From: a virus
Virus record (IMG/VR): IMGVR_UViG_3300040801_004087
Span: 1 to 39,100 of that record
DNA length: 39,100 bases
Direction: 5' to 3' (one strand)
Part shown: in pieces, positions 1-22,237 of the stretch
Layout: every line of letters begins with the position of its first letter
How positions within the stretch are numbered: the first letter of the stretch is position 1
Notes under the pieces: model-generated
What the model was told of the DNA's origin: nothing
The model's input: only the letters and a program-made list of their open reading frames with translations
Database searches by the model: none
Position numbers and translations under genes: made by a program

Positions 1-117
1 GCCGCTACGACATATTTGTCGGCGTCTATCCAAACGACCCCGCTACCCGCAGCGCTGCCGCCGCCGTCCACGACCGGCGCATCCGTATCGTCACGGGAGA
101 GCGGAGCGGCCCGACCA
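1..117 (+). pseudogene. NfrB-like glycosyltransferase, upstream fragment (split by prophage)
   Basis: Reading from base 3, the host sequence encodes YDIFVGVYPNDPATR followed later by ERSGPT, which resembles the glycosyltransferase region of NfrB (phage N4 adsorption protein B, a membrane glycosyltransferase of an exopolysaccharide system). The frame runs into prophage DNA at base 118. The continuation is found at 38984-39100, and the joined reading gives GPTTKAACLN without a frame break. The true gene start lies outside the window. The assignment to the NfrB-type family rests on recalled motifs (YDIFVG.YPND, GPT.KA.CLN, LHDAEDV) and was not searched. Confidence 0.8.
113..117. repeat. Target-site duplication, left copy (GACCA)
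   Basis: GACCA directly precedes the TG end of the prophage and recurs directly after its CA end at 38984-38988. A 5-bp duplication is the normal product of MuA-type transposition. Removing one copy and the prophage restores the host reading frame. Confidence 0.92.
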
Positions 118-137
118 TGTGGTGCGTCATTAATTGG
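118..137. repeat. Left terminal transposase-binding site (L1)
   Basis: The outermost 20 bp read, on the minus strand, CAATTAATGACGCACCACA. This matches the right terminus (TTTTTGACGCGCTACA at 38968-38983) and shares TTAATG(A/T)CG with sites at 312-324, 372-384 and 38952-38964. MuA-type transposases bind several such sites at each end. The site assignment is inferred from repetition at the ends. Confidence 0.75.
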
Positions 138-140
138 GTT

Positions 141-170
141 GGGCGGGATATGGCGGGATTTGGCGGGACG
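141..170. repeat. Three 10-bp tandem repeats, (T)GGCGGGAT type
   Basis: Three consecutive 10-mers read GGGCGGGATA, TGGCGGGATT and TGGCGGGACG. The period is about one helical turn, immediately inside the left terminal site. This would place identical contacts on one face of the helix, as expected for binding of an architectural or phage protein. The function is unknown. Confidence 0.6.
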
Positions 171-311
171 ATCCGGGATGAAATTGAGGATTTGCGGGGC
201 TTTGCGGCGGTCGCGGCCTGCGGGGCGGCCACCCTCGGAGTTTTTGTCGCGCGGCGCTGTTGAAGGCCTGCTGAAACCCGCAGGAAACCGCCATTCCGGG
301 ATCGCGAATGC

Positions 312-384
312 CGAGTTAATGTCGTGCGCATTATTCCCGGCCTAAACAACTGAGAATAGGCGATAAGTATGCGACATTAACTCG
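312..384. repeat. Inverted pair of inner left-end transposase-binding sites (L2/L3)
   Basis: CGAGTTAATGTCG at 312-324 is repeated exactly, in inverted orientation, at 372-384 (cgacattaactcg). The core TTAATGTCG also occurs at the right end (38955-38963). Two inverted sites plus the terminal one give a three-site left end like that of Mu. The non-coding stretch 118-403 appears to hold only these end sequences; no gene was recognised in it. Confidence 0.72.
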
Positions 385-403
385 ATTCTGGCCCTTCGCC
401 CCG

Positions 404-1193
404 TTATGCCGAAATAACCAGTTCGGTTCGCTTGACCGCTTTGGCGCCGCCGCCGACCGTGTAGGTTACGGGGACGATCTCCTGTTCGAATCTGTCGAAG
501 ATCGCGCGGGTCTCCGGCGTGGCGTTCAGGCTCATCAGAAAGCGGCCTTTCAGCCCGTCCAGCTGCTCCGCCATCCGTTCGAAGTCGGCGCGTTCGAACA
601 CGCTGTCACCATAGTCGTCCTCGCAGCCATAATAGGGCGGGTCGAGGTAGAAGAGGGTGCCAGGGCGGTCGTAGCGCCGTATGAAATCGGGCCATTGCAG
701 CCGCTCGATGACGACGCCAGCAAGGCGCTCGTGAAGCGCCTCCAGCATCGGGCCGAGCTTCGTGATGTCGAAGCGCCCAGGGCCGTTCGGATCGACGCCG
801 AATGTGCGTCCCGCGACCTTCCCGCCGAAGGCCGTTTTCTGAAGGTAGAGAAAGCGCGCCGCCCGTTCGAGATCGGTCAGGGTGGCCGGGTCGGTCCTGT
901 TGAGCCGCTCGAATCCTGCCCTCGTCGTGAGCTGGAAGCGGAGCATGTCGAGGAAGGCGACGTAGTGGCGCTGGAGGATACGAAAGAAGGTCGTGACGTC
1001 CTCGGACGACCTTCGGCCGGGCGCGCCTGCGGAGGAAGATGCCGCCCATGCCAACGAACGGCTCTGCGTAAAGCCTGTGCGGAATACGGGCGATGCGCGC
1101 GGTGAGATGCCGCGCGAGATTGCGCTTGCCGCCGATATAGCCGGCAACTGGTGAAACCGTGTTGATCGGACTCAGTTCGGGGATGGACTCCAT
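404..1193 (-). pseudogene. Broken Dam-type (D12 class) DNA adenine methyltransferase
   Basis: The N-terminal half starts at 1193 (MESIPEL...) and carries the AdoMet-binding motif FVGMGG. The C-terminal half lies in another frame, from about 1030 to 404, with the catalytic DPPYYG motif. The frames meet near 1030-1040 (ARPKVV against SEDVTTFF). There, both a frame change and a loss of several residues are evident: the segment that normally links motif I to FFRILQRHY, with an E-V-x-N-D element, is missing. This looks like a deletion of roughly 20-30 bp that inactivated the enzyme. An intact but different adenine methylase lies at 2868-3707. A programmed frameshift is unlikely because the linking segment is gone. 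Confidence 0.75.
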
Positions 1194-1534
1194 TCTGCGT
1201 TTGTTTCTATTCTGTTCCCGCCCGGTACCGGGTGGCGGGATGGACCTCTTGGGATCCGGGAGGCCGTGGCGGATGACACCCGCCGGTGAGCGGCGCTCCA
1301 ACGCCGCTTCCCCCGCCTTCAGAGAACGGGGATAAGAAAGTGTCGAAGGCAGACCATGCGCAGAAGACAAGGTGTGGGTTTGCTTCTCCGCGCGAAAGCG
1401 CTTATCTCCCGTCATGGCGCGTACGCGGAAATCTTGGTGAACCGTGGCGCTTCGCGGACTTACCATATGTGGTCTGCGATGTTGTCCTGAGAGGGAAAGC
1501 GAGTCCTCTCCGCGCCGCTGAATTGATGCTCTGT
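1194..1534. other. Intergenic region without a recognisable gene
   Basis: This 341-bp stretch separates the F-like gene from the dam remnant. No ORF in it looks protein-like in either strand. It holds a perfect 12-bp palindrome CCCGGTACCGGG (1221-1232) and a 7-bp stem (1289-1295 with 1302-1308). Neither is followed by a T-tract. Base composition is less GC-rich than in the core phage genes, suggesting remnant cargo DNA. Confidence 0.4.
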
Positions 1535-2875
1535 TCACGACGTGGGCCGTCCCGGCCAGCGATCGATCTTGACGGCAGAGGATGAGATCAAGCGTAGGGC
1601 TCGGCCTACATCTGTTGTGTGAGCACTGATTACGGCGCTCGGTTCGTCGTCCCACCGCCCAAGAACAATTCGGACCCACCGACCCTTCGAATGTGGTGCG
1701 AGCAAAACATGCCGGTTCGGGTGCTTCGGATCAGCACTTTGCAAGATGAGATGAGGCCCCCTGAATACCCGAGGAAAGCGGCGGTAGAAGTCCGCCTGCA
1801 GCGGTACGTCGGTCAGATCCTCATTGTCGTCCAGGCGGCTATAGAACTGCTTTGTCGCCATCCGACCACTCATCGTCACGGTGCGCGGCTGCCCAAGAGT
1901 TTCGGCATCGTCGGTACGCAGAATGCCAATGGGAAATGCAGCGCTATCCGCGTCGTTAAAGTGCGGTCTGTCCCGACGGCCCGTTCCTGCCGCCCCGCGT
2001 ATAATCTGCTGCGTCAGCATGAACTCGAAGTCGTCAGAGTCGACCATCTGCTCGAGCGTCCGCTGCGCGGCCTCGTCATTGCCGAGTGCCAGCGCTCGCT
2101 CGACGCTTTCCCGCGCCTTTCGTCCGACGCCGACCAGTGACGCTGCGCCGGGGTTGTAGTTCCAGCCTGGGCCGATGGTCTCGCGAACGTCTTCGGGGGC
2201 TTCAAGCACGGTCTGGCCGTCTCGGTTCAGGCGGAAGGTGGTGCCGATCGGCGGGTCGGGCGGGTCCGTCGAGACGGTCAGGCCGAAGGCCTCGAGCTGG
2301 CGTTCGGTCAGCTGTTGGACCGTGCAGCGGCAGCCCCAGTCGTTCGGCGGAAAGAGCCAGCGCCAGGCAGGATGGTCGACAGGTAGGACGATGTCGTGCC
2401 AGCGGGCATGCCGGTCGCGCGTCCGCGCGTCCATCACCGCCACATAACGTAGGTATGGTGCGAATTCCTTCCGCGCCTGGATGCGCTGCCACTGGCCTGC
2501 GGCCTGGCTGACGGCGAGGTTGGTGCGGTAGATGGTCTGCAGGCGGCGGCTGTTGACCACAATGGGCTCGCTCGTACCGGTCAGCGCCTCATTCTCGACG
2601 ACGCCCCACCAGCCCGCCTTTTCGAGCGTCGGGCGGATGGTATCCCGCCACTGCTCGAAGGTGCCGCCGTTCCGGATCACGTCGTCGAGGCTCTCCCTGA
2701 CGTCGTTCAGGAGGTCGAGCTGGGCAATCTTGGCGACGGTGAAGGCGCGCGCATGCTCCTCCTGCCACATTTCGCGCCAGTTGACCGTCTGGCGCAGCTC
2801 GCCGCGCCGGTCCCACGCATCGACGATCTCGCCGGGCTCCATGTAGATCGTCGCGCGGATGTCGGGTTCAGGCAT
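1535..2875 (-). CDS. Mu F-like head morphogenesis protein with C-terminal nuclease-like domain
   Basis: This 446-aa protein belongs to the Mu F / SPP1 gp7 minor head protein family, which works with the portal in procapsid assembly. The family region spans about residues 110-190, with AVMDARTRDRHARWH followed by PNDWGCRCTVQQL. The C-terminal 150 residues (FPIGILRTDDAETLG..., later HTTDVGRAL) resemble the phage barnase/EndoU/RelE-like nuclease modules often fused to such proteins; this part is less sure. The ATG at 2875 is preferred over a TTG at 2878, and the gene overlaps the dam stop by 8 nt. The 3' third looks less GC-rich than the 5' part, hinting that the nuclease module was acquired separately. 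The gene lies downstream of the portal but separated from it by three cargo genes. Confidence 0.85.
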   Translation of the reverse strand: MPEPDIRATIYMEPGEIVDAWDRRGELRQTVNWREMWQEEHARAFTVAKIAQLDLLNDVRESLDDVIRNGGTFEQWRDTIRPTLEKAGWWGVVENEALTGTSEPIVVNSRRLQTIYRTNLAVSQAAGQWQRIQARKEFAPYLRYVAVMDARTRDRHARWHDIVLPVDHPAWRWLFPPNDWGCRCTVQQLTERQLEAFGLTVSTDPPDPPIGTTFRLNRDGQTVLEAPEDVRETIGPGWNYNPGAASLVGVGRKARESVERALALGNDEAAQRTLEQMVDSDDFEFMLTQQIIRGAAGTGRRDRPHFNDADSAAFPIGILRTDDAETLGQPRTVTMSGRMATKQFYSRLDDNEDLTDVPLQADFYRRFPRVFRGPHLILQSADPKHPNRHVLLAPHSKGRWVRIVLGRWDDEPSAVISAHTTDVGRALRLISSSAVKIDRWPGRPTS

Positions 2876-3707
2876 CAAGCGCCTCTCGACAGGCGGGGTT
2901 CAACCAGATCGCTTCCGTCCGCGGCGCATTTCGGTGAGCTCTCGATGGCTTCACGTGTCGTGACCAGCCCTCGAGCGATTTGTCATAGAGCTCGCTCGGA
3001 TAGCCGGAAAGGACAATCATCGCGGAACTAGTGCGTGCCCTGTTCAGCAGCTCGCGGTGCTCGTCCTCTGTCATCTCGTGCTGGTAGGCGTGATATCGCT
3101 CGCCACGGCAGGTTTTCTTCGAACGCTGACAGGGCAGATAGGGAGGGTCGAGGTAGATCAATGCTTTCGACGTGTCGAAGGCTGACAGGAGCTCTATTGC
3201 TGGACGCTGTTCGATCGCGACGCCGCGAAGCCGCTCGACAATCGCAGTGATCGCGGCCGGAAGCCGCGCCCATTCGCCCGCCACGTCCGTACTGGAGCTC
3301 GAGCCATCGACGCGGAAGCCAGTCGGCCGATCGATCCGTGCGGCACCGGTCCCGTGGGACATGTGGGATCGGACGATCAGTCGCCGGGCGCGCTCTACCG
3401 GATCGTCAGTCTTCTCAAGTGCGAGTCGGCGTTCTTCCCGAGCGTAGGATGTAAGCCGCAGCTGCGCGATCAGCGCCCCCGCCTGATCGCTCCGGAGCAC
3501 CCTGAATAGATTGACGAGTTCGTTGTCGAGGTCGTTGTAGACCTCGTTGTACGACCGCTCTTTTCGCAAAAGGACGCTCGCCCCACCTCCGAACGGCTCA
3601 ACGTAGATTCGATGCTTCGGGAAAAATCCGCTGATCCATGGGGCCATTCGCCATTTTCCACCGAGCCAACGCAGGATCGGTCTGGTGGGGCCCGTCTCGC
3701 TAACCAT
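2868..3707 (-). CDS. DNA adenine methyltransferase (Dam/D12 class), intact
   Basis: This 279-aa protein is predicted to transfer methyl from AdoMet to adenine N6. The N terminus has RWLGGKWRMAPWI, the AdoMet motif EPFGGGASVLL (about residues 37-47), NDLDNELVNLFRVL (58-71) and the catalytic DPPY (187-190). Length is normal for the class. The ATG at 3707 follows GAGG at 8-nt spacing, and the gene begins one base after the Gp88-like stop. The site specificity cannot be read. In phages such orphan methylases usually protect DNA from host restriction or alter timing, and here the gene may take the role of Mu mom. The gene is clearly less GC-rich than the neighbouring portal and terminase genes, suggesting later acquisition. 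Confidence 0.9.
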   Translation of the reverse strand: MVSETGPTRPILRWLGGKWRMAPWISGFFPKHRIYVEPFGGGASVLLRKERSYNEVYNDLDNELVNLFRVLRSDQAGALIAQLRLTSYAREERRLALEKTDDPVERARRLIVRSHMSHGTGAARIDRPTGFRVDGSSSSTDVAGEWARLPAAITAIVERLRGVAIEQRPAIELLSAFDTSKALIYLDPPYLPCQRSKKTCRGERYHAYQHEMTEDEHRELLNRARTSSAMIVLSGYPSELYDKSLEGWSRHVKPSRAHRNAPRTEAIWLNPACREALDA

Positions 3708-3708
3708 A

Positions 3709-4506
3709 TCAATGCCTCAAGAAGGCGACGGTCTTGTCGCCAATCCAGCAATATCCGCAGGTCGAACAACAGTCGGTTCGTTCCGTCTGGGCCGGGCAGA
3801 CGACGTGATGAGGCTCCGCTTTCTCCTCACTCTCGACGACGATCGCACCGAAGGCTCCGGCATCATGGCCAGAGAATCGAATGCGACAGCGGTCAGGGAA
3901 GTCCAGATTGAGTTCGAGGATGGCTTCGCCGAGCGGCGTCTCGGGATCGTGCGCCGTATAGCCGAACAGCCGAAGCTGAGGATGCAGCGCAAGCGCCTGA
4001 TACCAGGTTTGAGCATAGGCTTCGCTGTAGAAGTCGCCGAGCACATGGATACGGATCACAAAACCGGCAGGGTGCTTCATCGCCAAGGCCGCGATTTCTA
4101 CCGGAATACGGGCTTCCAGCGCCGCGCCGTGGCGATTTCGGCGCGCAAGATGCATATTGTTGCCATAGCATTCGGTCCACTGCGCGCACCGGGCTGGACA
4201 GGTCGCCCGTTCTTCGAGCGTGAGCGTGTAGACCGGCATGTCCCGCCAGGGCCCCTTTGTGATCCGCTTCCCGACCTTGCGACTGTTATGGCCCGAGACG
4301 AAGAGCCTGTGGTTTCCGTCGGCCGGATGAACCGAACGCGGATATAAGGTCCGCCCTTCCAGCATAGCCGGGTGATCCGCCCTGAAGCGGCGTTTTCGCC
4401 CAGGCTTTGACTTCGGGATACGGAAATAGGGCCCAGGCGACGGGATCGATACGCCGAAACGAGGCATCAGGCAGATCCTTCCTGCAGTAGATCGGTTCTG
4501 GGTCAT
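3709..4506 (-). CDS. Gp88-like Cys-rich phage protein, possible metal/Fe-S cluster protein
   Basis: This 265-aa protein resembles the phage Gp88-like family, whose function is not established. A cysteine group CPARCAQWTEC (Cys103, 107, 113) is followed by IRIHVLGDFYSEAY (about 151-164) and FGYTAHDPET. A second cysteine cluster sits near the C terminus (Cys237, 246, 247, 250, 253). Such clusters suggest Fe-S or zinc binding. The first one is reminiscent of, but not identical to, a radical-SAM CxxxCxxC motif. The start at 4506 overlaps the ASCH stop (ATGA). The longer upstream reading to 4740 is only the antisense-free frame running through the ASCH gene and is rejected. Operon position with ASCH and Dam suggests a role in nucleic-acid modification, which is inference. 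Confidence 0.7.
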   Translation of the reverse strand: MTQNRSTAGRICLMPRFGVSIPSPGPYFRIPKSKPGRKRRFRADHPAMLEGRTLYPRSVHPADGNHRLFVSGHNSRKVGKRITKGPWRDMPVYTLTLEERATCPARCAQWTECYGNNMHLARRNRHGAALEARIPVEIAALAMKHPAGFVIRIHVLGDFYSEAYAQTWYQALALHPQLRLFGYTAHDPETPLGEAILELNLDFPDRCRIRFSGHDAGAFGAIVVESEEKAEPHHVVCPAQTERTDCCSTCGYCWIGDKTVAFLRH

Positions 4507-5042
4507 TGCGCGCCCTCGAGGGGCAGTGCTTCGCCTTGCGCTTCCGTCCAATTCCAGAGCCCCTGTCGACCTCGCGCCGGGACCGCCGGAAACCAGCGCT
4601 CGACGTCGAGCATGGGCCATCCGAAATTCGCATGCTCGTTTCGATCGCTGTCGTTCGGGAACTCGACACCGAAGCTGGCACCAATATCGCCGCCGAGTCG
4701 TGGTTCGCCGACAATCGCCGTGCCGACGCCGGCTCCCCAAGGCAGCAACCCAGCGCGGTACGTTCGACGGTCAAGCGTTTCGGGATCGACGTGGAGCGCA
4801 TCTTCGAGAACGGGCCTCGCGCGTTCCGGAATAAGGCACGTTCGTGCCGCTCTCTGGCCGCCAGCGTCGAGCGCGTTCAGAAGCAGTTTGGCCTCCCTCA
4901 CGTCCATCCTGCGCGATGAGGCGTGGATGACGATCTGCTGACCGACAAGGGATGCAGGAGGTTTCCACGACCGGAACTCGAATGGTTTTGCGCCAGCAAC
5001 GACGAGTGAGGCCCAAGGCTGCCAGAGCGTTAGCGCCTTCAC
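4503..5042 (-). CDS. ASCH domain protein
   Basis: This 179-aa protein starts LTLWQPWASLVVAGAKPFEF. It carries the ASCH signature G-x-K-x-x-E-x-R (Gly17, Lys19, Glu22, Arg24) and ends with a PARGRQGLWNW segment typical of phage and bacterial ASCH proteins. The fold is related to PUA and binds RNA or modified bases; the YqfB branch hydrolyses N4-acetylcytidine. The exact substrate here is unknown. It overlaps the portal stop by 4 nt (ATGA) and the Gp88-like start by 4 nt, so the three cargo genes ASCH, Gp88-like and dam are co-transcribed with late head genes. Confidence 0.85.
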   Translation of the reverse strand: MKALTLWQPWASLVVAGAKPFEFRSWKPPASLVGQQIVIHASSRRMDVREAKLLLNALDAGGQRAARTCLIPERARPVLEDALHVDPETLDRRTYRAGLLPWGAGVGTAIVGEPRLGGDIGASFGVEFPNDSDRNEHANFGWPMLDVERWFPAVPARGRQGLWNWTEAQGEALPLEGAQ

Positions 5043-6547
5043 TTTTCGCCCCCCTGCGATTCGGCGATGCGCGCGGCGAAGCCTGCGCGTGCCAAGGTTT
5101 CGGTCGTCTGGTCAGCTGACAGGTTCGGGGCGATCGTGCCGAGGAGGGCGCGGGCGGACTCCACATCTTCTACATCCTCAATCGCTGCGAGGAGCGGTGT
5201 CAGGATGTCGTCCGCAAAGGGCGTCGGCGCGCCGGGTTGGGTCAGGGCGGTGATGGCGTCTGCTCGATCATCCGCCGTCTCAGCGAACTCTGCGGGACTG
5301 GCAGGATCATCGGGCGCCGGAAGCAGGCCACCGGCCTCATTGACGACCTCGCCCTCGATCTCCTCCCACTCGTCGCCATAGGTCTCGCGGACGCTTTCGC
5401 GGCTGCGGCGATAGCCGAGCGCGTTCATCTTCGCGTCGAGGTCGGCGAGCTCGCTAAGGTCTTCGCCCTCTTCCTCCTGCCTGCGCGTGACGCGCGGGAT
5501 CTCGGCGCCGGGGAAGTTGATCTCGGTCAGCCATTTGGCGGGGCCCGCCATGAACCCCTCGGCGATCAGGTCGTCGTCGGCGTCGATGACGTCGTCGCGC
5601 GTGCCGGCATGCTCGGCCGCCGTGCCGGCCCACGCCTGGTTCTCGGTGGTGCCGGTCTGCGAGAGGAGAACCTTCGCGATGGCGAGGTCCATCTTGTCGA
5701 CCATCTTGTCATAGTCGGCACCGGCGCTGCGCGCGGCCTCGAGCAGCTCGACCGCCATTCCGTCCGGAATGACGATCCCGGTGTCGGTCGCGATGGCCTG
5801 AAGCGCTGCCAGGAGATTGGCGATATCGCCGTCGGGCGTGCCGGGCCGGTAGCGGCCAATCGCCGTCGGCGCGCCGTATTTGTCGAGGAAGGTGTTCCAG
5901 AATTTGAGACCGTTCCGTTTGAAGACGGTCGGCCAGTAAAGCCAGTGCGCGAGGCCGAGACCGTAAGGCAGGTCGTCAAGGCTGCCGCCCGCCTTCAGGA
6001 ACCAGAATTTGCGGTCTGGCAGCCGCTCGCCCTGCATGTTCTGCGGCGTCAGGAGGCGGAGCCGATCCTCGGCATCCTTGCGGAAGCGGCGGGCGTTCCG
6101 GACCTTGATGCCGGCGAACTGGATATAGCCGTCGATCTTTGCCCAGATGACCTCGCTGACGGCATAGCCATAATAGACGGCCATCTGCATCTTCGCCGAG
6201 ACGTTGTCCCAGCCCACGCGGCGAAGGTTCTCCTCGACGAGGGCCGCCGCCGCGATATCGATGTCGCGCTCGCCGCCCGCGGTGACGCGCCAGTCGCGGC
6301 TCGTGAGCGCCGTCGTGCGCTGCTGCCAGCAGCTCTTGACCTGGTCGTCGCGGAAGATGGTGTCGTAGACGCCCCAGTCCGCGCTCGATGCTAGCAGCGG
6401 ATCGGTTTCCTGCTGCAGCCCGCTGGTGAACGGGCGGAAGATGTCGCGGCCGTCCATCGTCGAGGCGACCTCGCCGCCGAGGCGGGCGGGCAGGCGGTTT
6501 GCTGCGGACGGGGTGATCGGATTTCCGCTCGCATCGAGTATGGGCAT
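5039..6547 (-). CDS. Portal protein, Mu gp29-like (DUF935)
   Basis: This 502-aa protein forms the dodecameric portal at the capsid vertex through which DNA is packaged. Recognisable DUF935 segments are VYDTIFRDDQVKSCWQQR near residue 60, YYGYAVSEVIWAK near 125-137, and FWNTFLDKYGAPTAIGRY near 218-235, followed by TENQAWAGTAAEH. The length matches the family. The acidic C-terminal tail is variable in the family. It follows the large terminase gene by one base and is followed by the ASCH gene in the minus-strand late operon. Confidence 0.93.
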   Translation of the reverse strand: MPILDASGNPITPSAANRLPARLGGEVASTMDGRDIFRPFTSGLQQETDPLLASSADWGVYDTIFRDDQVKSCWQQRTTALTSRDWRVTAGGERDIDIAAAALVEENLRRVGWDNVSAKMQMAVYYGYAVSEVIWAKIDGYIQFAGIKVRNARRFRKDAEDRLRLLTPQNMQGERLPDRKFWFLKAGGSLDDLPYGLGLAHWLYWPTVFKRNGLKFWNTFLDKYGAPTAIGRYRPGTPDGDIANLLAALQAIATDTGIVIPDGMAVELLEAARSAGADYDKMVDKMDLAIAKVLLSQTGTTENQAWAGTAAEHAGTRDDVIDADDDLIAEGFMAGPAKWLTEINFPGAEIPRVTRRQEEEGEDLSELADLDAKMNALGYRRSRESVRETYGDEWEEIEGEVVNEAGGLLPAPDDPASPAEFAETADDRADAITALTQPGAPTPFADDILTPLLAAIEDVEDVESARALLGTIAPNLSADQTTETLARAGFAARIAESQGGEK

Positions 6548-8159: not shown

Positions 8160-8577
8160 GCGCGGGTTCCTCATCGTCGAGTGGGCGGGGCGGTTTGGGC
8201 GCGCCGCAAGGGTCGGTGTCCCACCAGGCCAGGGCGCGGCGTTCGATCATCGACAGCCATTCGTCCGCGATCTCCGCGCCGCGCAGACCGTCGCGCGAGA
8301 CGAGATCAAAATGGACGCCGTCGGGGCGGGCGCCTTCCGGGCGGACATGATCGCTGACGCGGAACAGCCAGCGCTGGCCGTCCAGCGTCAGGTGGAGATA
8401 GCAGCTGGGGGATCGCGGCGTATGGCTCCGGCGCACGATGACCGGCGCGAAGCCGCGGCAGCGGGCTTCGTGCGCGATCTGGCGCGCGAGAACCGGGATG
8501 CGAATGAGCCGCTCCTCCCGCGTCGACGGCTCGGCCGCGTCGAGATCGGCGATGAGTGGGCCGCACGCGTCGATCAT
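8146..8577 (-). CDS. Phage protein of unknown function
   Basis: This 143-aa protein was not recognised. It has a mixed N-terminal half (REERLIRIPVLARQIAHEA) and a beta-type segment CYLHLTLDGQRWLFRVSDH, ending in a proline- and acid-rich tail. It is translationally coupled to both neighbours: ATGA overlap with the helix-turn-helix gene upstream and a 14-nt overlap with the large terminase start downstream. The position in the packaging operon suggests late expression. Confidence 0.7.
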   Translation of the reverse strand: MIDACGPLIADLDAAEPSTREERLIRIPVLARQIAHEARCRGFAPVIVRRSHTPRSPSCYLHLTLDGQRWLFRVSDHVRPEGARPDGVHFDLVSRDGLRGAEIADEWLSMIERRALAWWDTDPCGAPKPPRPLDDEEPAHELL

Positions 8578-8849
8578 CGGTCGTCATTCCAAGGCCGGTG
8601 GCAATGGGGGCAGCAGTCCGCCCGTGGCGGCGCGGCATGAAGGACTTCGAGGCTGCGGGTCTTTCCGGCGCGGCGGCGGATGAAGCCGCGCTCTTCGAGC
8701 CCGGCGAGAAGGCGAGTGGCACTCGACTTCGACGCCAGTCCCGCGGCGTCGATGATGTCCGTGAATGACGGCGAGTGCCCATGCTCGGCCTGGTAGCGCT
8801 CGATGAAGCGAAGGCAGTCGGCCTGTTTCGGGGTGAGGTCGGCCTTCAT
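8574..8849 (-). CDS. LexA N-terminal-like winged-helix DNA-binding protein
   Basis: This 91-aa protein resembles the LexA DNA-binding domain alone. LTPKQADCLRFIERYQAEHG is followed by SPSFTDIIDAAGLASKSSAT and RLLAGLEERGFIRRR, which correspond to the helices and the wing of LexA. No protease domain follows, so it cannot be an autocleaving repressor. A C-terminal CCPHCHRPW group may bind zinc. It sits between gapR-region and terminase genes in the late operon and could regulate phage or host SOS-box genes, which is inference. Confidence 0.75.
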   Translation of the reverse strand: MKADLTPKQADCLRFIERYQAEHGHSPSFTDIIDAAGLASKSSATRLLAGLEERGFIRRRAGKTRSLEVLHAAPPRADCCPHCHRPWNDDR

Positions 8850-9658
8850 CCCGCCCTCCGCTCGTAGCTCTGCGCCTTGGCGATCAGCTGCCGGTCGGTG
8901 AGTTCTCGCCCGGCGAAGCGCCAGCGGTCCTTGCGACCGCCAGCGATCGATGCCCGGAACACGGGGAAGCCGCGCCGCTGGAGGTAGTGCTGCGCCTCGC
9001 CGACGCTCTCGATCGCGGCCTCAGGAGCGTCGACCTTTGGCAGGTTCGGCAGGGAGCGGCTGCGGTCCTCAGGCGACCGGAACGGCTCACGCGGCGGCAG
9101 CGGCTCGGCGAGAAGGCGGCCTGCTGATCGGGGTGTCGAACCCGGCCTTAAGTCAATCCGAGAGCGCCCTTGTACATCTCCAAGATCGCCTCCTGTTCCT
9201 GCCTGTCGTTGCGGTCCATGGCCCGCAGTCTGATGACGGTTCGCATGGTCTTCGGATCGAAGCCCTCGCTCTTCGCCTCGCCGTACACCAGCTTGATGTC
9301 GTCCGTGATCGCTTGCTTCTCCTTCTCCAGGCTCTCGATCCGCTCGATGAACTTTCTGAGCTGTTCCGCTGAGTGTGCCTGTGCCATTTTCGTTCAACTC
9401 CTTTGGTTCTGTCCCTCGGCTGCGCTCGGGATGGTGAATGGGGGTATCTTCTGCGGCGCGGTCGGTGCTTGGCGCTTTTTCAGGTTCTTCGGTCAGGCGG
9501 TAGGCATCGAACTCGACATAGCCGTGCCAGCGGAGGCCCTCGACGACGCGCTTCAGCCGTGCGGGCGAAAGGCCGGTTTCGCCGCGCAGGACCACGAACT
9601 GACATTCGCCACCCTCAAGCGCGGCCAGAACGGCCCGGTGGTCAGCCGTAAGGATCAC
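8846..9658 (-). CDS. Composite ORF: winged-helix-like N terminus and separate C-terminal domain, with gapR nested out of frame
   Basis: One uninterrupted 270-aa frame. Residues 1-60 (MILTADHRAVLAALEGGE..., LSPARLKRVVEGLRWHGYVEF) look like a small winged-helix protein. The last 80 residues (YLQRRGFPVFRASIAGGRKD, WRFAGRELTDRQLIAKA) look like a common small phage protein. The roughly 80 residues between are the wrong-frame reading of gapR (9148-9387) and are Gly/Arg/His-rich without protein character. No in-frame ATG, GTG or TTG was found to start the C-terminal part on its own. Either two genes were fused by a deletion or frame change around gapR, or the distal part is reached by read-through or a rare start. 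The ATG at 9658 overlaps the gp27-like stop (ATGA). Confidence 0.5.
   Translation of the reverse strand: MILTADHRAVLAALEGGECQFVVLRGETGLSPARLKRVVEGLRWHGYVEFDAYRLTEEPEKAPSTDRAAEDTPIHHPERSRGTEPKELNENGTGTLSGTAQKVHRADREPGEGEASDHGRHQAGVRRGEERGLRSEDHANRHQTAGHGPQRQAGTGGDLGDVQGRSRIDLRPGSTPRSAGRLLAEPLPPREPFRSPEDRSRSLPNLPKVDAPEAAIESVGEAQHYLQRRGFPVFRASIAGGRKDRWRFAGRELTDRQLIAKAQSYERRAG
9148..9387 (-). CDS. GapR-like DNA-binding protein (DUF2312)
   Basis: This 79-aa protein matches the GapR family, a nucleoid-associated protein of alphaproteobacteria that binds overtwisted DNA and affects replication and the cell cycle in Caulobacter. The family pattern is clear: AEQLRKFIERIESLEKEK, then DDIKLVYGEAKSEGFDPKTM and a RxxDRxxRQEQEAILEMY end. 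The start has a good ribosome-binding site (AAAGGAG about 9 nt upstream). It lies entirely inside the longer frame 8846-9658 in another frame. A phage copy may modulate supercoiling during replication-transposition or packaging. Confidence 0.92.
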   Translation of the reverse strand: MAQAHSAEQLRKFIERIESLEKEKQAITDDIKLVYGEAKSEGFDPKTMRTVIRLRAMDRNDRQEQEAILEMYKGALGLT

Positions 9659-10188
9659 AGACCCATCACCTGTTCGCGGATCAAGTCGATCGTCGCCTTG
9701 TCGGCACCTGCCTTCTTTGCGGCACCGGTGGCGGCCTGCGCGGCCTCCTCCTTCGTGCGCTGGCGTTCCTCGGCGCGGATCGCACGCTCGGTATCGACGC
9801 CGATCTTCTTGGCACCGGCGACGTCCTTCACGGCCTTGGCGAGGCGGCTGATCTCGAGACCGCCGAGGTTCTCGGCGTCGTCACCGGTTAGGAGCGGCAA
9901 CAGATTCTGGGTGACCAGCTGCTGCATGAGCTGGGTCATGATCTCGCCGGTCTCGTTGTCCTCGAACTCCTTGCCGAAGGTCGCCGCCATCGCGGAAATC
10001 TCGCGCTGGCGTTCGACGATCTCGGAATAATTCTTGGTGTAGCGGCCGACGGCGGAACGGGAGACATCGGCGCCGAGCCCGTTGAGAACGGCGGTGATCT
10101 CGTCGATGGTCGCGCCGCGGCCGATGGCCTCATGACAGGCATCCTGCAGGGGCTTTGCGAGCTGTTCGATCGTCGAGCGATTAGCCAT
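9655..10188 (-). CDS. Small terminase subunit-like, Mu gp27 (DUF3486)
   Basis: This 177-aa protein matches DUF3486 / Mu gp27, located just before the large terminase in Mu-like phages and probably the DNA-recognition subunit. The N-terminal third holds a helix-turn-helix: RGATIDEITAVLNGLG, then VSRSAVGRYTKNY. A helical middle with EFEDNETGEIMTQLMQQL and an Ala/Lys-rich coiled tail follow. It overlaps the gp26-like stop by 8 nt upstream and couples by ATGA to the frame at 9658. Confidence 0.88.
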   Translation of the reverse strand: MANRSTIEQLAKPLQDACHEAIGRGATIDEITAVLNGLGADVSRSAVGRYTKNYSEIVERQREISAMAATFGKEFEDNETGEIMTQLMQQLVTQNLLPLLTGDDAENLGGLEISRLAKAVKDVAGAKKIGVDTERAIRAEERQRTKEEAAQAATGAAKKAGADKATIDLIREQVMGL

Positions 10189-10486
10189 CGCGCATCACCC
10201 GGTGCCGGTGCACGCCCTCGACGGCGAGATCGCCTACGGCGGCGTCGCGGCCATCCTCTTCGATCTCGGCCACCACATAGCCGCCAAGCTGTTCGGTGCG
10301 GATCAGACCCTCCTCAGCCAGGTAAGCGAGGTCGGCGCGGAGTTCGCGGCCAGCGACGGTGTGGCCGAAGCCGTTGAGAAGCGTTTTCAGCTGGGCGTCG
10401 TTGTGGCGGCCGCCGATGTCGGCGAGCAGCTCGAGGACGGCCCTACGGACAATTGGGCGGACGATGGCGCGAGTGTGCTCGCTCAT
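10181..10486 (-). CDS. Mu gp26-like winged-helix phage protein
   Basis: This 101-aa protein sits in the Mu gp26 position between DUF2730 and DUF3486. VRRAVLELLADIGGRHNDAQ and LRADLAYLAEEGLIRTEQL form a winged-helix pattern, with a strand GGYVVAEI and a conserved-looking C-terminal end VEGVHRHR. Family members of this position are annotated only as conserved phage proteins. It may help the terminase region bind DNA, which is inference. It overlaps both neighbours (4 nt and 8 nt). Confidence 0.8.
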   Translation of the reverse strand: MSEHTRAIVRPIVRRAVLELLADIGGRHNDAQLKTLLNGFGHTVAGRELRADLAYLAEEGLIRTEQLGGYVVAEIEEDGRDAAVGDLAVEGVHRHRVMRDG

Positions 10487-10890
10487 GACTTGCGGCCCTC
10501 GCGGTCGATGAAGTCGCGGAGGTAGCTGTCCATGCCGCTGATACGGCGGTCGATCCCCTCAACCGAGCTCTTCAGCGCGGCGGTGTCAGCCTTCAGCGCG
10601 GCGTTGTCGCGTGCCAGCTCGTGGCGGGAAGGCTCGCCCTGCTCAAGGCGCTCTATGACGTCCATGCGAGCGCTGAGGTCGCGATTCCCCGCGCTGATGC
10701 CGTCGACCTTGTCAATCAGCGCGTCGAGTTTCTTCTCGATCTTGCTGTCGGTTTCCTCGATCTCGTCGCGCGGCTTGAAGTGCTTTTGCAGCTGCCAGTA
10801 GACCGCGCCGAGCGCGAGCGGGCCGAGGAATACGAAGACCGCCGTCAGGAGCGGCGACATCGCCTCCAGCCATTGCAGGACGCTGGTCAT
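10483..10890 (-). CDS. Mu gp25-like membrane-anchored coiled-coil protein (DUF2730)
   Basis: This 135-aa protein has one N-terminal membrane segment (about residues 12-32, LLTAVFVFLGPLALGAVYW) followed by a long coiled coil up to the end (TDSKIEKKLDALIDKVDGI and later heptads). This is the DUF2730 architecture found upstream of gp26/gp27 in Mu-like phages. Its job is not known; a role at the membrane near lysis or packaging has been assumed for the family. It is the first gene of the left late operon, about 30 nt downstream of the predicted Mor-dependent start point. Confidence 0.85.
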   Translation of the reverse strand: MTSVLQWLEAMSPLLTAVFVFLGPLALGAVYWQLQKHFKPRDEIEETDSKIEKKLDALIDKVDGISAGNRDLSARMDVIERLEQGEPSRHELARDNAALKADTAALKSSVEGIDRRISGMDSYLRDFIDREGRKS

Positions 10891-10926
10891 GAGCAGTTCC
10901 GGAAGGCATGATTGAACATGCGATCC

Positions 10927-10971
10927 GGTCTAGGCCAGCGGCCCCGTTCGTTCCCCTGTCCCCCGAGGGAC
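10927..10971 (-). promoter_or_regulatory. Predicted Mor-dependent late promoter, left arm
   Basis: On the minus strand GTCC-CTCGGG-GGAC (10971-10958) is followed after 10 + 14 nt by CTAGACC (from 10933). The same dyad with the same spacing to a CTA element occurs before 19762 and 36652. If TAGACC is the -10 element, the dyad is centred near -44, as for Mor at the Mu middle promoter. The predicted transcript starts near 10920, leaving a leader of about 30 nt. Confidence 0.65.
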
Positions 10972-10977
10972 GGGCGC

Positions 10978-11013
10978 GGTCTTTTTCTAGGGGCGGGTCT
11001 TCTTCTAGGGACG
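10978..11013. repeat. Two 18-bp tandem repeats at the 3' end of mor
   Basis: The unit GGTCTTTTTCTAGGGGCG (10978-10995) is followed directly by GGTCTTCTTCTAGGGACG (10996-11013), with two differences. The second copy contains the mor stop codon (TAG, minus strand) and the first repeats that stop in frame. It looks like a local duplication of the gene end. Confidence 0.75.
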
Positions 11014-14908: not shown

Positions 14909-15473
14909 GTTCGCGTCCTTTCGTGACGTCGAAAGTTTCATTGGTGTTGGGATCGTGGAGGCGCCGGGTGCCGGTCGCGGTACAGCGCGTCACGAAAGGC
15001 GCCTTCGGGCCGCTGCGCCGGACCAGGCGGTAGCGAGCCTGGCGGTTCGACTTCCAGCCATAGGTGCGCGACATCCGCACGAACCCCGCCCGCTGCAGGC
15101 TTATTATGAAATTGTAGGCCGCAGAACGGGAGCTGCGGGCAACGAGCATCAGCTCGGAGACCTGAAACTCGCCGAGCATCCGCATCGACTGCCAGAGGCG
15201 CTGGCGCGGCGGCGTTTCCGTTCGCGTCGACCCGTCGCGCGACAGCCTGGGTGTGTCGGTGGGAGCCGTGCCGGTGACCCGGTAAGTCGCCGGCTTCTGA
15301 TGAGCCTGCTGCGCCTTCTCGAGGAAACCCGCGCGGAGCCACCCTGCGACGTTCGCCCGCGCGCCGCTGAGCGAGATCCGGGCCCTCGCGGTCATCTCCG
15401 CGTAGGTCAGACCGTCCGGCGCGGCGCGGAGCGCCCGCCAGAGCCGGTCGGCCTTGTCGCCCTTCCGCTCCAT
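14898..15473 (-). CDS. Early protein with two winged-helix domains
   Basis: This 191-aa protein seems to be a tandem of two winged-helix domains. The first is RLWRALRAAPDGLTYAEMTA then ISLSGARANVAGWLRAGFLE (residues 10-52). The second is RLWQSMRMLGEFQVSELMLV then SRSAAYNFIISLQRAGFVRM (about 93-133). A basic linker lies between. It directly follows the B gene (TGATG overlap) and likely binds DNA during early replication. No named family was assigned. Confidence 0.7.
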   Translation of the reverse strand: MERKGDKADRLWRALRAAPDGLTYAEMTARARISLSGARANVAGWLRAGFLEKAQQAHQKPATYRVTGTAPTDTPRLSRDGSTRTETPPRQRLWQSMRMLGEFQVSELMLVARSSRSAAYNFIISLQRAGFVRMSRTYGWKSNRQARYRLVRRSGPKAPFVTRCTATGTRRLHDPNTNETFDVTKGREHAR

Positions 15474-16249
15474 CAGGCCGGGACCTTGCGCGTGACCGGG
15501 TCGCCCGTGATCACCCTGCGGTTGCCCCAGAGGGCGCGGTCGATGCGGCCCATCCCCTCGGCCGTCGCGAAGCGCTGCGCCTCCTCTAGGTTGACCCGGA
15601 TGCGGCGCGCGTTCTTCTTCGTCTGGACGCGGAAATGCTCGACGAGGTCGTCGGCGACCTCGACATCCTGGCAGAACACGTCGCGCAGCATTAGCGCGTC
15701 GGCCGCGCTAGCGGGCGCTGCGGGCGTGAAGGTGAGGATGCGGGAGTGGAACTGATCCCAGCGCTTCAGCTTCTGGGGCAGGCTTTCCATCCCCACCAGC
15801 ATGATGCCGCAGGGCGTCTTGTCGTGCAGGTCGCGGGCGACGTCGACCATCTGTTTCTTCACGAGGTAGTCGGCCTCGTCGATGATGATCGGCCGCGGGA
15901 AGACGTTCAGCTGCTCGATCAGCTCGGCCAGTATCGCCGGGCTGGTGCGCGCGGGCTTCGCGATGCCGATCTCGCGGCTGAGCTCGGTCAGGAAGCTCTT
16001 CACCGTCCAGATCGAGCAGAACTCCACGTAGGCCGCGCCCGTTTCGTTCTGGGCGAAGGAGCTGGCGTAGGTCTTGCCGTAGCCAGGCGGCCCGTGAAGG
16101 ACGCCGAAGCGCGGGCTGTTCTCGCCCGCATTCTGCAGTTCCATCACGGATTTCAGCGCCAGCGCCATGTTGGACAGCGGGGCCATCTGGCCGACGCCGG
16201 CCGGCGGGTCCGCCTCCTCTTCCGGATTGAGGCTCGACTGGTTGATCAT
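15473..16249 (-). CDS. B: MuB-like transposition ATPase (AAA+)
   Basis: This 258-aa protein is the target-capture ATPase that delivers target DNA to the transposase and stimulates it. The Walker A motif is GPPGYGKT (residues 53-60), the Walker B motif IIIDEAD (121-127), and a sensor-like segment GIMLVGMESLPQKLKRWDQF follows (SRILTF after it). Mu B is 312 aa; here the N-terminal helix-turn-helix extension of Mu B is missing, and the protein begins close to the ATPase core. The start at 16249 overlaps the transposase stop (ATGA). Confidence 0.93.
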   Translation of the reverse strand: MINQSSLNPEEEADPPAGVGQMAPLSNMALALKSVMELQNAGENSPRFGVLHGPPGYGKTYASSFAQNETGAAYVEFCSIWTVKSFLTELSREIGIAKPARTSPAILAELIEQLNVFPRPIIIDEADYLVKKQMVDVARDLHDKTPCGIMLVGMESLPQKLKRWDQFHSRILTFTPAAPASAADALMLRDVFCQDVEVADDLVEHFRVQTKKNARRIRVNLEEAQRFATAEGMGRIDRALWGNRRVITGDPVTRKVPA

Positions 16250-17796
16250 GCGGATGCTCCTCCTCGTGCCGCTCCGCCGCCGAAGCGGACGGAGAGGACT
16301 TTCTGCGCCCGGTATTCCGGGCACGCGGCGTAGCGGCGGGCTGCCGCCAGCTTCATGTCGTCGACGGGTTCGCCGCTCTCGGCGCGCGCGATTAGGGCGT
16401 CGGCCTCGGCCACCTTCTCGGCCGGCGAACGCTTCGCGGCGGCGCGGCTGGCGCCGGCCGCGCGGCGCAGTTCGGCGAGATCGACCGGCGGGGCGGTGTC
16501 CTCGGTGTCCTGCGCTGGCGAAGGACCGGCAGGGCGCGGCGCGGGCAGCGGTGTGATCTCGCCCGCCCGTTCGGCCTCGCCGCGAAGGGTCATCGCCACC
16601 GCGTCCTCGATCGAGAACCCGCGCGCCGCGTCGCGCAGTTTCTGCGCCTCGGCATTGCGGTACTCGGCCTGCGCGCGGCGGGCCGCCTCGGCGAACTGCT
16701 GCTCCGAAAGGCCCGCGCGCTCGTGATCGATGGCGGTGCAAAGGTAGGTGCCTGCCTCGTCAAAGATGAGCAGCTCGCCGAGGTCGGCCTCGTCGCGGCG
16801 CACGGCGACGTCGCGGCCCATCCATCCGTTCAGGGCGGCGTGCCAGTAACGGCCGCCCTTCCATTCGATGCCGCGCTTGCCGACCGTTCGGGTGCCGACG
16901 AAGTCGGTCAGCGACCGGCGCACGATGTCCTCGTCCGGTGCGCGGCGCGGGCGGACCAGCGAGGTCGCGGCCCGCGCGATCGGTGTCTGCTTCGTGGTGC
17001 CGTGCTTGCGCTGGTGGTAGGTGCCCTCCGTCCATGCGCTCAGGATCGCGGCGAACTCCTCGCCGGACAGCGCGGGCTGGATCTCCGCGCGGCCGGTGCG
17101 TTTCTTGGCGCGGCCGCGCAGCTTCTGCGCGTCGGCGACCGAATGGCCGGTGAAGCCTTCGAGCAGCGGCGCCCGCTCGCGCATGAAGGTGCCGAACAGG
17201 CGCTCGACGTAAGGCTTTTTCTCCGGGCTGCCGGGCGGGCAGATGATCTGTTCAATGCCGAGAAGGTCGAGCGCCGACTTCACCGACCGGTTGACGTAGC
17301 CGGAACCGTTGTCGGTCGCGATGGCCTGCGGAAGGACGCCCCATTTCAGGATCGCCTCCCGGATCAGGCGGCGCACCGACTGGCCGGATTCGGACGGCGC
17401 AACGATGAAGAAGGCGAGGCGCGAGTAGCGGTCGATCAGGCCGAGGACGGCAACGCGGCCGTCCGTCGTCATCACGTCGGCCTTCGTGGTGTCGACTTCC
17501 CAGACCTGGTGCGCGGAATCGACGCCGCCGTCGGCGCGGCCGAGCGACAGGCGAAATTTCGACTTGTAGGCGTCGGGGTCGCGGATCGCGGCGAAGATCG
17601 CCGCCTTTTCCTCGTTCCGGCGCCGGATGTAGCGCTGCAGCTGGCGGAGGGTGGGGAGTGTGTCGAACTGCGTGGCGAGAAGCTCAAGGATCCGCGGCGC
17701 GGCCCAACCCTCCCGCGCGACCATCAGGTCGACGGCGGCAGCGAGGTCGCGGTGCCGGTCGAAGAAGCTGGTGTTCCGCGGACGGCCCCCGGGCAC
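16246..17796 (-). CDS. A: MuA-like DDE transposase
   Basis: This 516-aa protein catalyses strand transfer of the phage ends. A bipartite N-terminal DNA-binding region (residues 5-65, RHRDLAAAVDLMVAREGWAA, then LRQLQRYIRRR) precedes the RNase H-like catalytic core with D102 (WEVDTTKAD), D162 (IATDNGSG) and E198 (KPYVERLFGTF). After the core come a beta-barrel region and an Ala-rich C terminus, which in MuA contacts MuB. MuA is 663 aa and starts with an enhancer-binding domain, which is lacking here; a separate Ner-like gene sits 2 bp upstream. The GTG at 17796 is the likely start; the frame continues to 18129 but overlaps ner. Confidence 0.93.
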   Translation of the reverse strand: MPGGRPRNTSFFDRHRDLAAAVDLMVAREGWAAPRILELLATQFDTLPTLRQLQRYIRRRNEEKAAIFAAIRDPDAYKSKFRLSLGRADGGVDSAHQVWEVDTTKADVMTTDGRVAVLGLIDRYSRLAFFIVAPSESGQSVRRLIREAILKWGVLPQAIATDNGSGYVNRSVKSALDLLGIEQIICPPGSPEKKPYVERLFGTFMRERAPLLEGFTGHSVADAQKLRGRAKKRTGRAEIQPALSGEEFAAILSAWTEGTYHQRKHGTTKQTPIARAATSLVRPRRAPDEDIVRRSLTDFVGTRTVGKRGIEWKGGRYWHAALNGWMGRDVAVRRDEADLGELLIFDEAGTYLCTAIDHERAGLSEQQFAEAARRAQAEYRNAEAQKLRDAARGFSIEDAVAMTLRGEAERAGEITPLPAPRPAGPSPAQDTEDTAPPVDLAELRRAAGASRAAAKRSPAEKVAEADALIARAESGEPVDDMKLAAARRYAACPEYRAQKVLSVRFGGGAARGGASA

Positions 17797-17798
17797 GC

Positions 17799-18068
17799 TC
17801 AGCGCCCCTGGAAACGGCGCTTCGGCCGGTAATTTTCGGGCGGCTGCGGACGCAGGCGGGAGCCGTCGATCGCGTAACGGTCCGGCCAGAGCTCGGCCGG
17901 TGAGACGTCCAGAACTGCCGCGATCGCTTCCTCGCCGCGCTTGTTCGGCCTGTGGATCGCCGACGAGCAAGTATGGCGCGGCAGCCCGAACTTGGCGTCG
18001 ACTTCCAACATGGTAGTGCCGCGAGCGCGAATCGCTGCTACGATGTAATTCGGGTTGCACGATTCCAA
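17799..18068 (-). CDS. ner: Ner-like DNA-binding regulator
   Basis: This 89-aa protein matches the Ner/Nlp family, which turns down early and repressor transcription in transposable phages. The pattern is IVAAIRARGTTMLEVDAKFG, then LPRHTCSSAIHRPNKRGEEA and a conserved end LDVSPAELWPDRY. It is the first gene of the minus-strand early operon, next to the shared control region and diverging from the repressor gene. The start at 18068 has only a modest ribosome-binding site. Confidence 0.88.
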   Translation of the reverse strand: MESCNPNYIVAAIRARGTTMLEVDAKFGLPRHTCSSAIHRPNKRGEEAIAAVLDVSPAELWPDRYAIDGSRLRPQPPENYRPKRRFQGR

Positions 18069-18164
18069 GGATCCCTAGCCTCTCGTTCGGTTTCCAACTT
18101 TCCGGAGTGGCTAATTCAGAATTGTGCAAATCGCAAGAGTTATTCTCCGCCGGAGGTCAAGGTG
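18069..18164. promoter_or_regulatory. Divergent early/repressor control region with operator-like palindromes
   Basis: This 96-bp gap separates ner (minus) from the repressor (plus) and is clearly AT-richer than its surroundings. It holds a perfect palindrome AATTC-A-GAATT (18113-18123) and a near-adjacent TGC-AAATC-GCA (18125-18135). By analogy with Mu and lambda it should contain both the early and the lysogeny promoters and the binding sites of repressor and Ner. No convincing -35/-10 pair could be fixed by eye. The repressor ribosome-binding site GGAGG is at 18152-18156. Confidence 0.65.
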
Positions 18165-18806
18165 ATGGAATTCAGCGATCATTTTACCGATCGGTTGCAG
18201 ATTGCTCTCGCGCAGGCGGGCGGTATTCCGCACGTTGCCCAAGAATTGGGAATCGGTCAGTCGACGCTCTACAATTATCGGAAGGGTGCCCAATCCCCAT
18301 CGGTCGCCTTCATCTACCAGCTCGCCCGCCTCGCGGGGATTGAGCCAGGCTGGATCGTCGGAACGCAGGAGCTGTCGAAAGAGCAGGTGAAGGTCGCCCC
18401 GGTGCCGCTTTACGACATTTCGATCTCGGCGGGCGGCGGCGCAGTGTCCTGGGCGGAAGAGGTCCAGGAGCATCTGAGCTTCAACGAATCCTGGCTGCGC
18501 GAGAATTTCGGCGAACCGGAGAATTTGGTCCTGTTCCGGATCGTCGGCGATTCGCAGGAGCCGCTCATGTCGACCGATGACACGCTCATGACGGACCGAT
18601 CAAAACGGACGCCCGGCGACGGCCTCCACGTCGTGCGCACCGGCGACACGCTGCAGATCAAACGGCTGCACCGGATCAGCGCTTCGAAACTGCAGCTGCT
18701 GTCGGCCAATCCGGCCTATCCGCCCATCGAGATCGACCTGGAGGCGGAAGGCGAGCAGTTCGAGATCGTGGGCAAGGGCGTCTGCCTGCTGCGTATGTTG
18801 ATCTGA
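18165..18806 (+). CDS. CI/LexA-like phage repressor (helix-turn-helix plus S24 peptidase)
   Basis: This 213-aa protein should maintain lysogeny. Residues 9-60 form a helix-turn-helix (GGIPHVAQELGIGQSTLYNY), and residues 80-213 an S24 domain. The cleavage site is likely Ala89-Gly90 in SISAGGG. The catalytic dyad is Ser130 (VGDSQEP) and Lys166 (LQIKRLHR). All key residues are present, so DNA damage via RecA probably induces the phage by self-cleavage, unlike Mu c, which has no such domain. The ATG at 18165 has GGAGG 8 nt upstream. The frame extends upstream to 17952 but that part crosses ner in antisense. Confidence 0.93.
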   Translation: MEFSDHFTDRLQIALAQAGGIPHVAQELGIGQSTLYNYRKGAQSPSVAFIYQLARLAGIEPGWIVGTQELSKEQVKVAPVPLYDISISAGGGAVSWAEEVQEHLSFNESWLRENFGEPENLVLFRIVGDSQEPLMSTDDTLMTDRSKRTPGDGLHVVRTGDTLQIKRLHRISASKLQLLSANPAYPPIEIDLEAEGEQFEIVGKGVCLLRMLI

Positions 18807-18921
18807 TGCGACCGTCGCAAATTTGCCCGCTGAGACGTTTCTTCCGCCGTAAGTGGCGAAGGGCGGGGCTGCGGCCTGAAAAACGCTGTGCGGGGGCGTT
18901 CAGGGCGATTGGCGGCGCTTC

Positions 18922-19287
18922 TTGATCATAGCCGCTGCCCTCTCTTCGTTCATCCTGTGCACCGAACCTGTGGCGGCGCGGGACGGCGACGATCTTCTGT
19001 GCGGCGATCTCAAGCTGCGGATCGAGGGCGTGAACGCGCGGGAGCTGTCGAACGACTGCCGGGGCCGCGCACCCTGTCCGGCGATGGCCGGGCACGAGGC
19101 GCGGCGCATCCTCGGCGATCTCGTGGCGGACGGCTTCAGCTACCGGGTCAGCTACGAGGATCGCTACGGCCGCGCGGTCGCGGAAATCCGCCTTGCCGAT
19201 GGCCGCGATCTCGCCTGCACCTTGATTGCCGAAGGCGCGGCGCTACGCTGGCCGAAATACTGGCCGGAGGGGAAACGGTGTGAGTGA
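18922..19287 (+). CDS. Secreted thermonuclease-like (SNase) protein
   Basis: This 121-aa protein has a hydrophobic signal-like N terminus (IIAAALSSFILCTEPVAA) and an SNase-fold domain. KLRIEGVNARE corresponds to the family pattern V-R-L-x-G-I-D-A-P-E, and DRYGRAVAEI to D-x-Y-G-R. The three residues expected for catalysis (Arg33, Glu41, Arg84) are present. It would act in the periplasm. The start is a TTG with a weak ribosome-binding site. It lies just after the repressor on the same strand, a position where lysogenic-conversion genes are common. A role against incoming phage DNA is possible but inferred. Confidence 0.75.
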   Translation: MIIAAALSSFILCTEPVAARDGDDLLCGDLKLRIEGVNARELSNDCRGRAPCPAMAGHEARRILGDLVADGFSYRVSYEDRYGRAVAEIRLADGRDLACTLIAEGAALRWPKYWPEGKRCE

Positions 19288-20814: not shown

Positions 20815-20867
20815 CGCCGCCCACGCTGCGAACCCACAGACACGCAATCATCCCGAAGGACTGACCG

Positions 20868-21197: not shown

Positions 21198-21252
21198 CGG
21201 CGCCGCGCCGTCCCTGTTCCCGCCCGTTTAACCAGCCAGGAAAGCCCGTTTC

Positions 21253-22194: not shown

Positions 22195-22203
22195 CCCTGA
22201 ACC

Positions 22204-22237
22204 GCCGCCGGGCACTTCTATCCTTCCACCCGGCGGC
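22204..22237 (+). terminator. Stem-loop after the capsid gene
   Basis: GCCGCCGGG (22204-22212) pairs perfectly with CCCGGCGGC (22229-22237) across a 16-nt loop, 10 bp after the capsid stop. No T-tract follows, so it is more likely a partial terminator or mRNA stabiliser than a full Rho-independent stop. The next gene starts at 22313. Confidence 0.5.

Follow-up and report, generated by a model that had tools for sequence, protein, structure and literature searches.

Phage Mu carries at its right end the com-mom genes, which are responsible for a carbamoylmethyl-adenine modification. Enzymes of the Dam family, whose expected activity is N6-methylation of adenine (m6A), also occur in phages as orphan or type II DNA methyltransferases (MTases). 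Most characterized ASCH proteins bind RNA or hydrolyze modified cytidine (PMC6972931, PMC9599836); among the latter, the amidohydrolase YqfB requires Lys21, Thr24, Arg26, and Glu74, with Lys21-Thr24-Glu74 as the catalytic triad (PMC6972931), and ZmASCH is cited as a ribonuclease in PMC13160076. ASCH has also been termed a modified-DNA-binding domain (PMC10853773), and for the ASCH-type barrel BapA, binding to DNA containing modified bases has been reported (PMC13160076). Here, we analyzed the 39.1-kb virus record IMGVR_UViG_3300040801_004087 (the window). The phage is Mu-like and encodes transposase A/B and a Mu-type terminase, portal, and gpF; between portal and gpF lie genes for an ASCH-domain protein, a GP88 protein, and a Dam-family MTase. 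Our best explanation, offered tentatively, is that this cassette is a late anti-restriction DNA-modification moron in the head-gene operon, performing a role like that of Mu mom with other proteins.

Insertion of a three-gene cassette at the portal-gpF joint

All three cassette open reading frames (ORFs) were intact and on the minus strand. The ASCH gene (positions 4503 to 5042; 179 amino acids, GTG start) matched PF04266 (E value, 1e-4, above the Pfam cut-off) and phrog_3193 (E value, 7e-25), and the GP88 gene (3709 to 4506; 265 amino acids, ATG start) matched PF17338 (E value, 6e-9; 36.5 bits against a cut-off of 24.4), phrog_2554 (E value, 1e-23), and phrog_1392. The third gene (2868 to 3707; 279 amino acids, ATG start) encodes a Dam-family (MethyltransfD12) N6-adenine DNA MTase with matches to PF02086 (E value, 4e-19; 69.7 bits against a cut-off of 22) and phrog_56 (E value, 2e-62). 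The insertion is limited upstream by the Mu-type portal gene (5039 to 6547, minus strand; PF06074; E value, 2.5e-88) and downstream by the gene for a Mu gpF-like head protein (1535 to 2878, minus strand; PF04233; E value, 8e-22). Coupling is tight throughout: portal and ASCH overlap by GTGA and ASCH and GP88 by ATGA, the GP88 stop codon lies 1 bp ahead of the Dam ATG, and the Dam stop codon overlaps the gpF start region.

The G+C content of the cassette was 61.5%, compared with 66.8% for portal, 66.3% for terminase, and 67.7% for the whole phage. Only 0.14% of equal-length stretches of the phage had a G+C content as low, none of them outside positions 1 to 5042; gpF (64.4%) and a second, right-end Dam gene (63.4%) were also lowish. 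Third-position G+C was 0.67 to 0.70 in the cassette versus 0.85 to 0.87 in portal and terminase. The cassette is a true insertion: portal and gpF abut in Pseudomonas phage B3, and their matches were directly adjacent in five alphaproteobacterial loci (L188, L189, L190, L191, and L194). The nearest relative found, L183, whose portal was 72% identical to that of the window, carries at the same joint approximately 1.9 kb of different, opposite-strand cargo (ORFs at 9502 to 10992). As the window and L183, two of two close relatives, carry different cargo there, this lineage seems to use the joint as a site for cargo. Overall, the data support the three genes being an acquired, foreign-looking accessory (moron) cassette in a head-gene operon. 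A sequence-only reading of this DNA had described three coupled genes of lower G+C that split the portal from gpF and had named them ASCH, Gp88-like, and Dam; the ORFs, junctions, composition, and relatives bear out the first point, and the Pfam and PHROG profile matches bear out the second. In the L183 cargo, one ORF resembled SRAP/YedK (SOS-response-associated; named by sight rather than by profile search), and another encodes a putative membrane protein.

The cassette Dam and a broken Dam gene at the right end

The DPPY and GGGASV motifs of the cassette Dam were intact, and its profile matches to solved structures included DpnM (2dpm; E value, 2e-9) and E. coli Dam (E value, 5e-8). PADLOC matched only the Dam, as a type II MTase (MTase_II). 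Formation of m6A would be the activity expected from membership of the family.

The second Dam gene, at the right end (404 to 1192, minus strand), is broken: a 17-bp deletion near position 1007 shifts the reading frame and leaves the gene divided between frames. An intact, 82%-identical homologue is present in L183, where apparent host DNA (thymidylate synthase) follows beyond it. In the window, the right-end gene is either a true pseudogene or the product of an assembly error at the 17-bp deletion. An origin of the cassette Dam by duplication of the right-end gene was rejected, as it shared 32% identity with the right-end Dam of L183 versus 44% with the Dam of another phage contig (L256). The cassette Dam could have made the old right-end Dam dispensable.

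Neighborhoods of the cassette genes in other phages

Viral contigs were scanned in turn with GP88, ASCH, DUF5131 (Phage Gp37/Gp68, PF07505), and Dam, and GP88 proteins were collapsed to 94 clusters at 70% identity; the GP88 and DUF5131 scans each returned at least hundreds of viral contigs. Pfam families adjoining GP88 included DUF6551, DnaA C-terminal, and SNF2/helicase, together with the MTase families MT-A70 (4 upstream and 7 downstream), N6/N4 MTase (2 and 4), and C5 MTase (2). Five genes from GP88, MTase families were no longer in the neighbor list. A DNA MTase occupied 12 of 141 adjoining positions versus 10 of 517 positions at a distance of 5 to 10 genes (94 clusters; Fisher P = 5e-4) and was thus approximately four times commoner beside GP88 than at farther genes. 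The commonest gene upstream of GP88 was DUF6551, seemingly ParB-like (13/80).

Operons with the same functional classes were found elsewhere. In L074, the one other phage with ASCH directly beside GP88, the order was N6/N4 MTase-ASCH-GP88 with an ATGA overlap at both joints. A maximum-likelihood tree placed the window ASCH in a well-supported clade (98/97), here named EFR, nearest to the proteins of L143 and L144. L143, which carries the closest relative (63% identity), had the order DUF5131-ASCH-C5 MTase-N6/N4 MTase with 4-bp overlaps at all joints, and L150 had ASCH-DUF5131-C5 MTase-PAPS reductase. ASCH, DUF5131, and Dam lay within approximately 2 kb of one another in L256 (same contig as L337), L335, and L340. 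Of the 80 phage loci in a search centered on DUF5131 (L197 to L276), 12 had a same-strand ASCH gene no more than 1.5 kb away. Among EFR-clade ASCH genes, 10 of 15 had DUF5131 or GP88 at a distance of up to five genes, versus 5 of 32 other ASCH genes (P = 0.0016). The window shows one of several arrangements that bring an ASCH gene together with genes for a Cys-cluster protein and a DNA MTase, with GP88 filling the place that DUF5131 holds elsewhere. Because the same functional classes co-occur in other phages, the complete lack of co-occurrence that would speak against a joint function was not seen.

A number of observations nevertheless weigh against a modification cassette. The sequence-only reading had taken the trio as a DNA modification or anti-restriction system to be looked for in other phages; its functional classes recurred in the loci just described, and the exact trio ASCH-GP88-Dam was found, among the loci examined, in the window only. 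The lone ASCH-GP88 adjacency of the L074 type could be chance, and phage accessory regions gather such genes anyway. Only 12 of the 94 GP88 clusters had a directly adjacent DNA MTase; the other 82 had none, and GP88 usually sits with replication genes (DnaA-like, beta clamp, SNF2), so that any partnership with MTases is not an obligate one. The EFR rows of the ASCH comparison include near copies (L146/L148 and L149/L150), so the P values are optimistic. GATC sites were not depleted in the phage (385 seen, 352 expected), a count considered uninformative.

These counts bear on an explanation that is nearly as likely, namely, that the three genes are independent morons, with an orphan Dam serving to regulate or to stand in for the broken right-end Dam and with ASCH and GP88 merely occurring in accessory regions of a similar kind. 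For most GP88 genes, neither an MTase nor ASCH lies in the vicinity, and within 1.5 kb of cassette-type Dam genes DUF5131 was found in 7 of 73 loci, ASCH in 4 (absent from 69/73), and GP88 in none (absent from 73/73). With the right-end Dam lost, the cassette Dam alone would suffice to account for retention. Independent acquisition fits less well with the operons in which 4-bp overlaps repeatedly connect ASCH and a Cys-cluster protein with DNA MTases that differ in ancestry, or with the significant positional enrichment. A late modification cassette is favored by the near-overlapping intact ORFs, a joint that is unbroken in six relatives and holds different cargo in L183, the distinct composition, the recurring operons, the MTase enrichment, the nearness of ASCH to DUF5131 and GP88, and the helix-turn-helix domains of longer GP88 proteins, as well as by the state of the two Dam genes, the one in the cassette being intact and the right-end one broken.

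The ASCH protein

The octapeptide GAKPFEFR of the window ASCH (residues 17 to 24; positions 4971 to 4994, minus strand) fits the superfamily pattern GxKxxExR, and K19, E22, and R24 were invariant in an alignment of 36 relatives. Profile comparison with the Protein Data Bank (PDB) identified TRIP4/ASC-1 (E value, 5e-17) and EOLA1 (E value, 1e-7) as the closest solved ASCH structures. Deacylation of the YqfB type was considered and rejected: Glu22 occupies the position of Thr24, and because the catalytic Thr is replaced by Glu this reaction is unlikely for the window protein. The expectation that ASCH would bind or process modified nucleotides held for its identity as an ASCH protein, here of the TRIP4/EOLA1 kind; processing in the manner of YqfB is unlikely.

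The same evidence touches on a further alternative, that RNA or nucleotides are the targets of ASCH and GP88, in host takeover or translation, with Dam as a separate activity. The RNA binding, cytidine hydrolysis, and ribonuclease activity described above for ASCH proteins would agree with this, as would TRIP4 and EOLA1 being the nearest solved structures. We regard it as improbable given that GP88 is found fused to DNA-binding domains, that the neighbors are DNA enzymes, and that EFR-clade ASCH genes lie in operons with DNA MTases.

The GP88 protein and DUF5131

GP88 was aligned with 110 homologues among the matches listed; they came from phages and from genomes that were mostly alphaproteobacterial. 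The residues kept were K77, E99, C103, C107, C113, R123, R152, H154, G157, D158, Y164, W168, R210, S212, C237, C247, C250, and C253. The two Cys clusters pointed out in the sequence-only reading are real, with all seven Cys invariant in 110/110 homologues: cluster 1 (C103-X3-C107-X5-C113, then YG) is encoded at 4168 to 4200 and cluster 2 (C237-X9-C247-X2-C250-X2-C253) at 3748 to 3798, both on the minus strand. Judged from these residues, an iron-sulfur (Fe-S) or metal site is plausible. Several of the longer GP88 proteins carried N-terminal helix-turn-helix domains (GcrA/HTH_38 in 6, and HTH_11 and HTH_29 in 4, of 22 scanned), and because of these fusions DNA is the likely site of GP88 action.

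An AlphaFold model of GP88 was confident (pLDDT, 91; pTM, 0.86). Foldseek searches of the PDB gave no match at an E value of ≤0.001 (QueE; E value, 0.26), and sequence comparison with solved structures likewise gave no match. Among viral models, matches were to GP88 and DUF7227 proteins and to a single protein of the Gp37/Gp68 family (E value, 9e-4), with weak matches to radical-SAM proteins (E values of about 0.1 to 0.14). Cluster 1 has the pattern CX3CX5C in 96 of 110 homologues, all three Cys being invariant, rather than the canonical radical-SAM CX3CX2C; the radical SAM superfamily includes variant cluster motifs. By our reading of the model, the order of elements is b1-Cys loop-a1-b2-GD-a2-b3-T-a3-b4-RxS, with LGDF at the position of the radical-SAM GGE. 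This order resembles the radical-SAM core and suggests that GP88 may be of radical-SAM nature.

Such a protein could take part in hypermodification, in which Dam makes m6A, a radical-SAM-like Fe-S GP88 extends it (or another base is modified), and ASCH presents or protects the product. The two invariant Cys clusters, the element order, the weak structural matches to radical-SAM proteins and QueE, and the occurrence, in related cassettes, of DUF5131 and of sulfur enzymes resembling PAPS reductase would all be in keeping with this. It is speculative and has a low probability in our estimate, as GP88 significantly matches no solved structure, cluster 1 departs from CX3CX2C, and GP88 pairs also with C5 MTases and often with no MTase.

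Profile alignment of GP88 with DUF5131 using hhalign was not significant (E values, 0.6 and 0.042); it set CYG over CYA and GDFYS over GDLFH. The DUF5131 model was also confident (pLDDT, 88) and in the PDB gave no significant match, only weak TIM-barrel-like ones. Searches of the openly licensed literature found no function for GP88, DUF7227, or DUF5131.

Layout of the surrounding phage

The Mu-like layout of the window is unusual (15473 to 19654 and 19762 to 38580). Transposase A/B genes lie mid-window on the minus strand and are followed by terminase, portal, and gpF toward one end, and the protease, capsid, and tail genes are on the plus strand, running in the opposite direction. Within the terminase/portal gene run, a gene at 8574 to 8849 (minus strand) encodes a 91-amino-acid protein consisting of a LexA-type DNA-binding domain only (PF01726; E value, 2e-14).

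Proposed role of the cassette

If the cassette does act in DNA modification, phage DNA would be modified shortly ahead of packaging and host restriction enzymes would not cut it. Late timing is suggested because the cassette sits among head genes. Dam would methylate adenine, and the TRIP4-type ASCH might bind DNA or the base mark as a targeting or reader subunit, as its type and the reported binding of modified bases by ASCH proteins hint. GP88 would be a Cys-cluster enzyme, probably Fe-S or metal binding, that assists or extends the modification, given its invariant residues, DNA-binding fusions, and neighbors.

Dam and ASCH are known kinds of protein, and their combination with GP88 is new. 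GP88 and DUF5131 proteins are common and highly conserved, and their operon-level coupling with DNA MTases, ASCH, and PAPS-reductase-like genes yields a first testable guess at function, namely, DNA modification. If this guess is right, a large class of phage genes would gain a role in evading restriction, and new base chemistry may await. A bolder version, in which GP88 and the look-alike DUF5131 form a new Fe-S, radical-SAM-like family of DNA base-modifying enzymes that work with unrelated phage DNA MTases and an ASCH reader in a base modification not yet described, is unlikely.

Comparison with known systems

Searches of the window with Mu Mom and Com (tblastn and phmmer) gave nothing significant, in agreement with the absence of mom in the sequence-only reading, and the cassette was rejected as a Mom/Com relative. 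The likeness to Mu com-mom lies in a Mu-like phage and a proposed late adenine modification against restriction. The cassette differs in being MTase based, in having three genes, and in its position at the portal-gpF joint instead of the right end, which in this lineage is occupied by Dam. A replacement of mom might be argued from position and timing; the ancestral right-end Dam, broken in the window and already present in the lineage, weighs on that claim.

The window ASCH shares its fold and the octapeptide Lys and Arg with the N4-acylcytosine amidohydrolase YqfB and differs by the Glu in place of the catalytic Thr24. It is closer by profile to the ASCH domains of TRIP4/ASC-1 and EOLA1, from which the phage clade is distinguished by EFR instead of ETR and by an extra insertion between barrel strands. 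DUF5131 resembles GP88 in three N-terminal Cys ending in CYA (CYG in GP88), in a (G)D(L/F)F-type motif past the next strand, in the structural match among viral models, and in its ASCH and MTase partners, whereas its Cys spacing is CX6CX2C and it lacks the C-terminal four-Cys cluster. The cassette Dam, finally, is like the phage orphan Dam and type II MTases (PF02086, phrog_56, and MTase_II) in its DPPY motif and its similarity to DpnM and E. coli Dam, and it differs from them in being coupled with ASCH and GP88.

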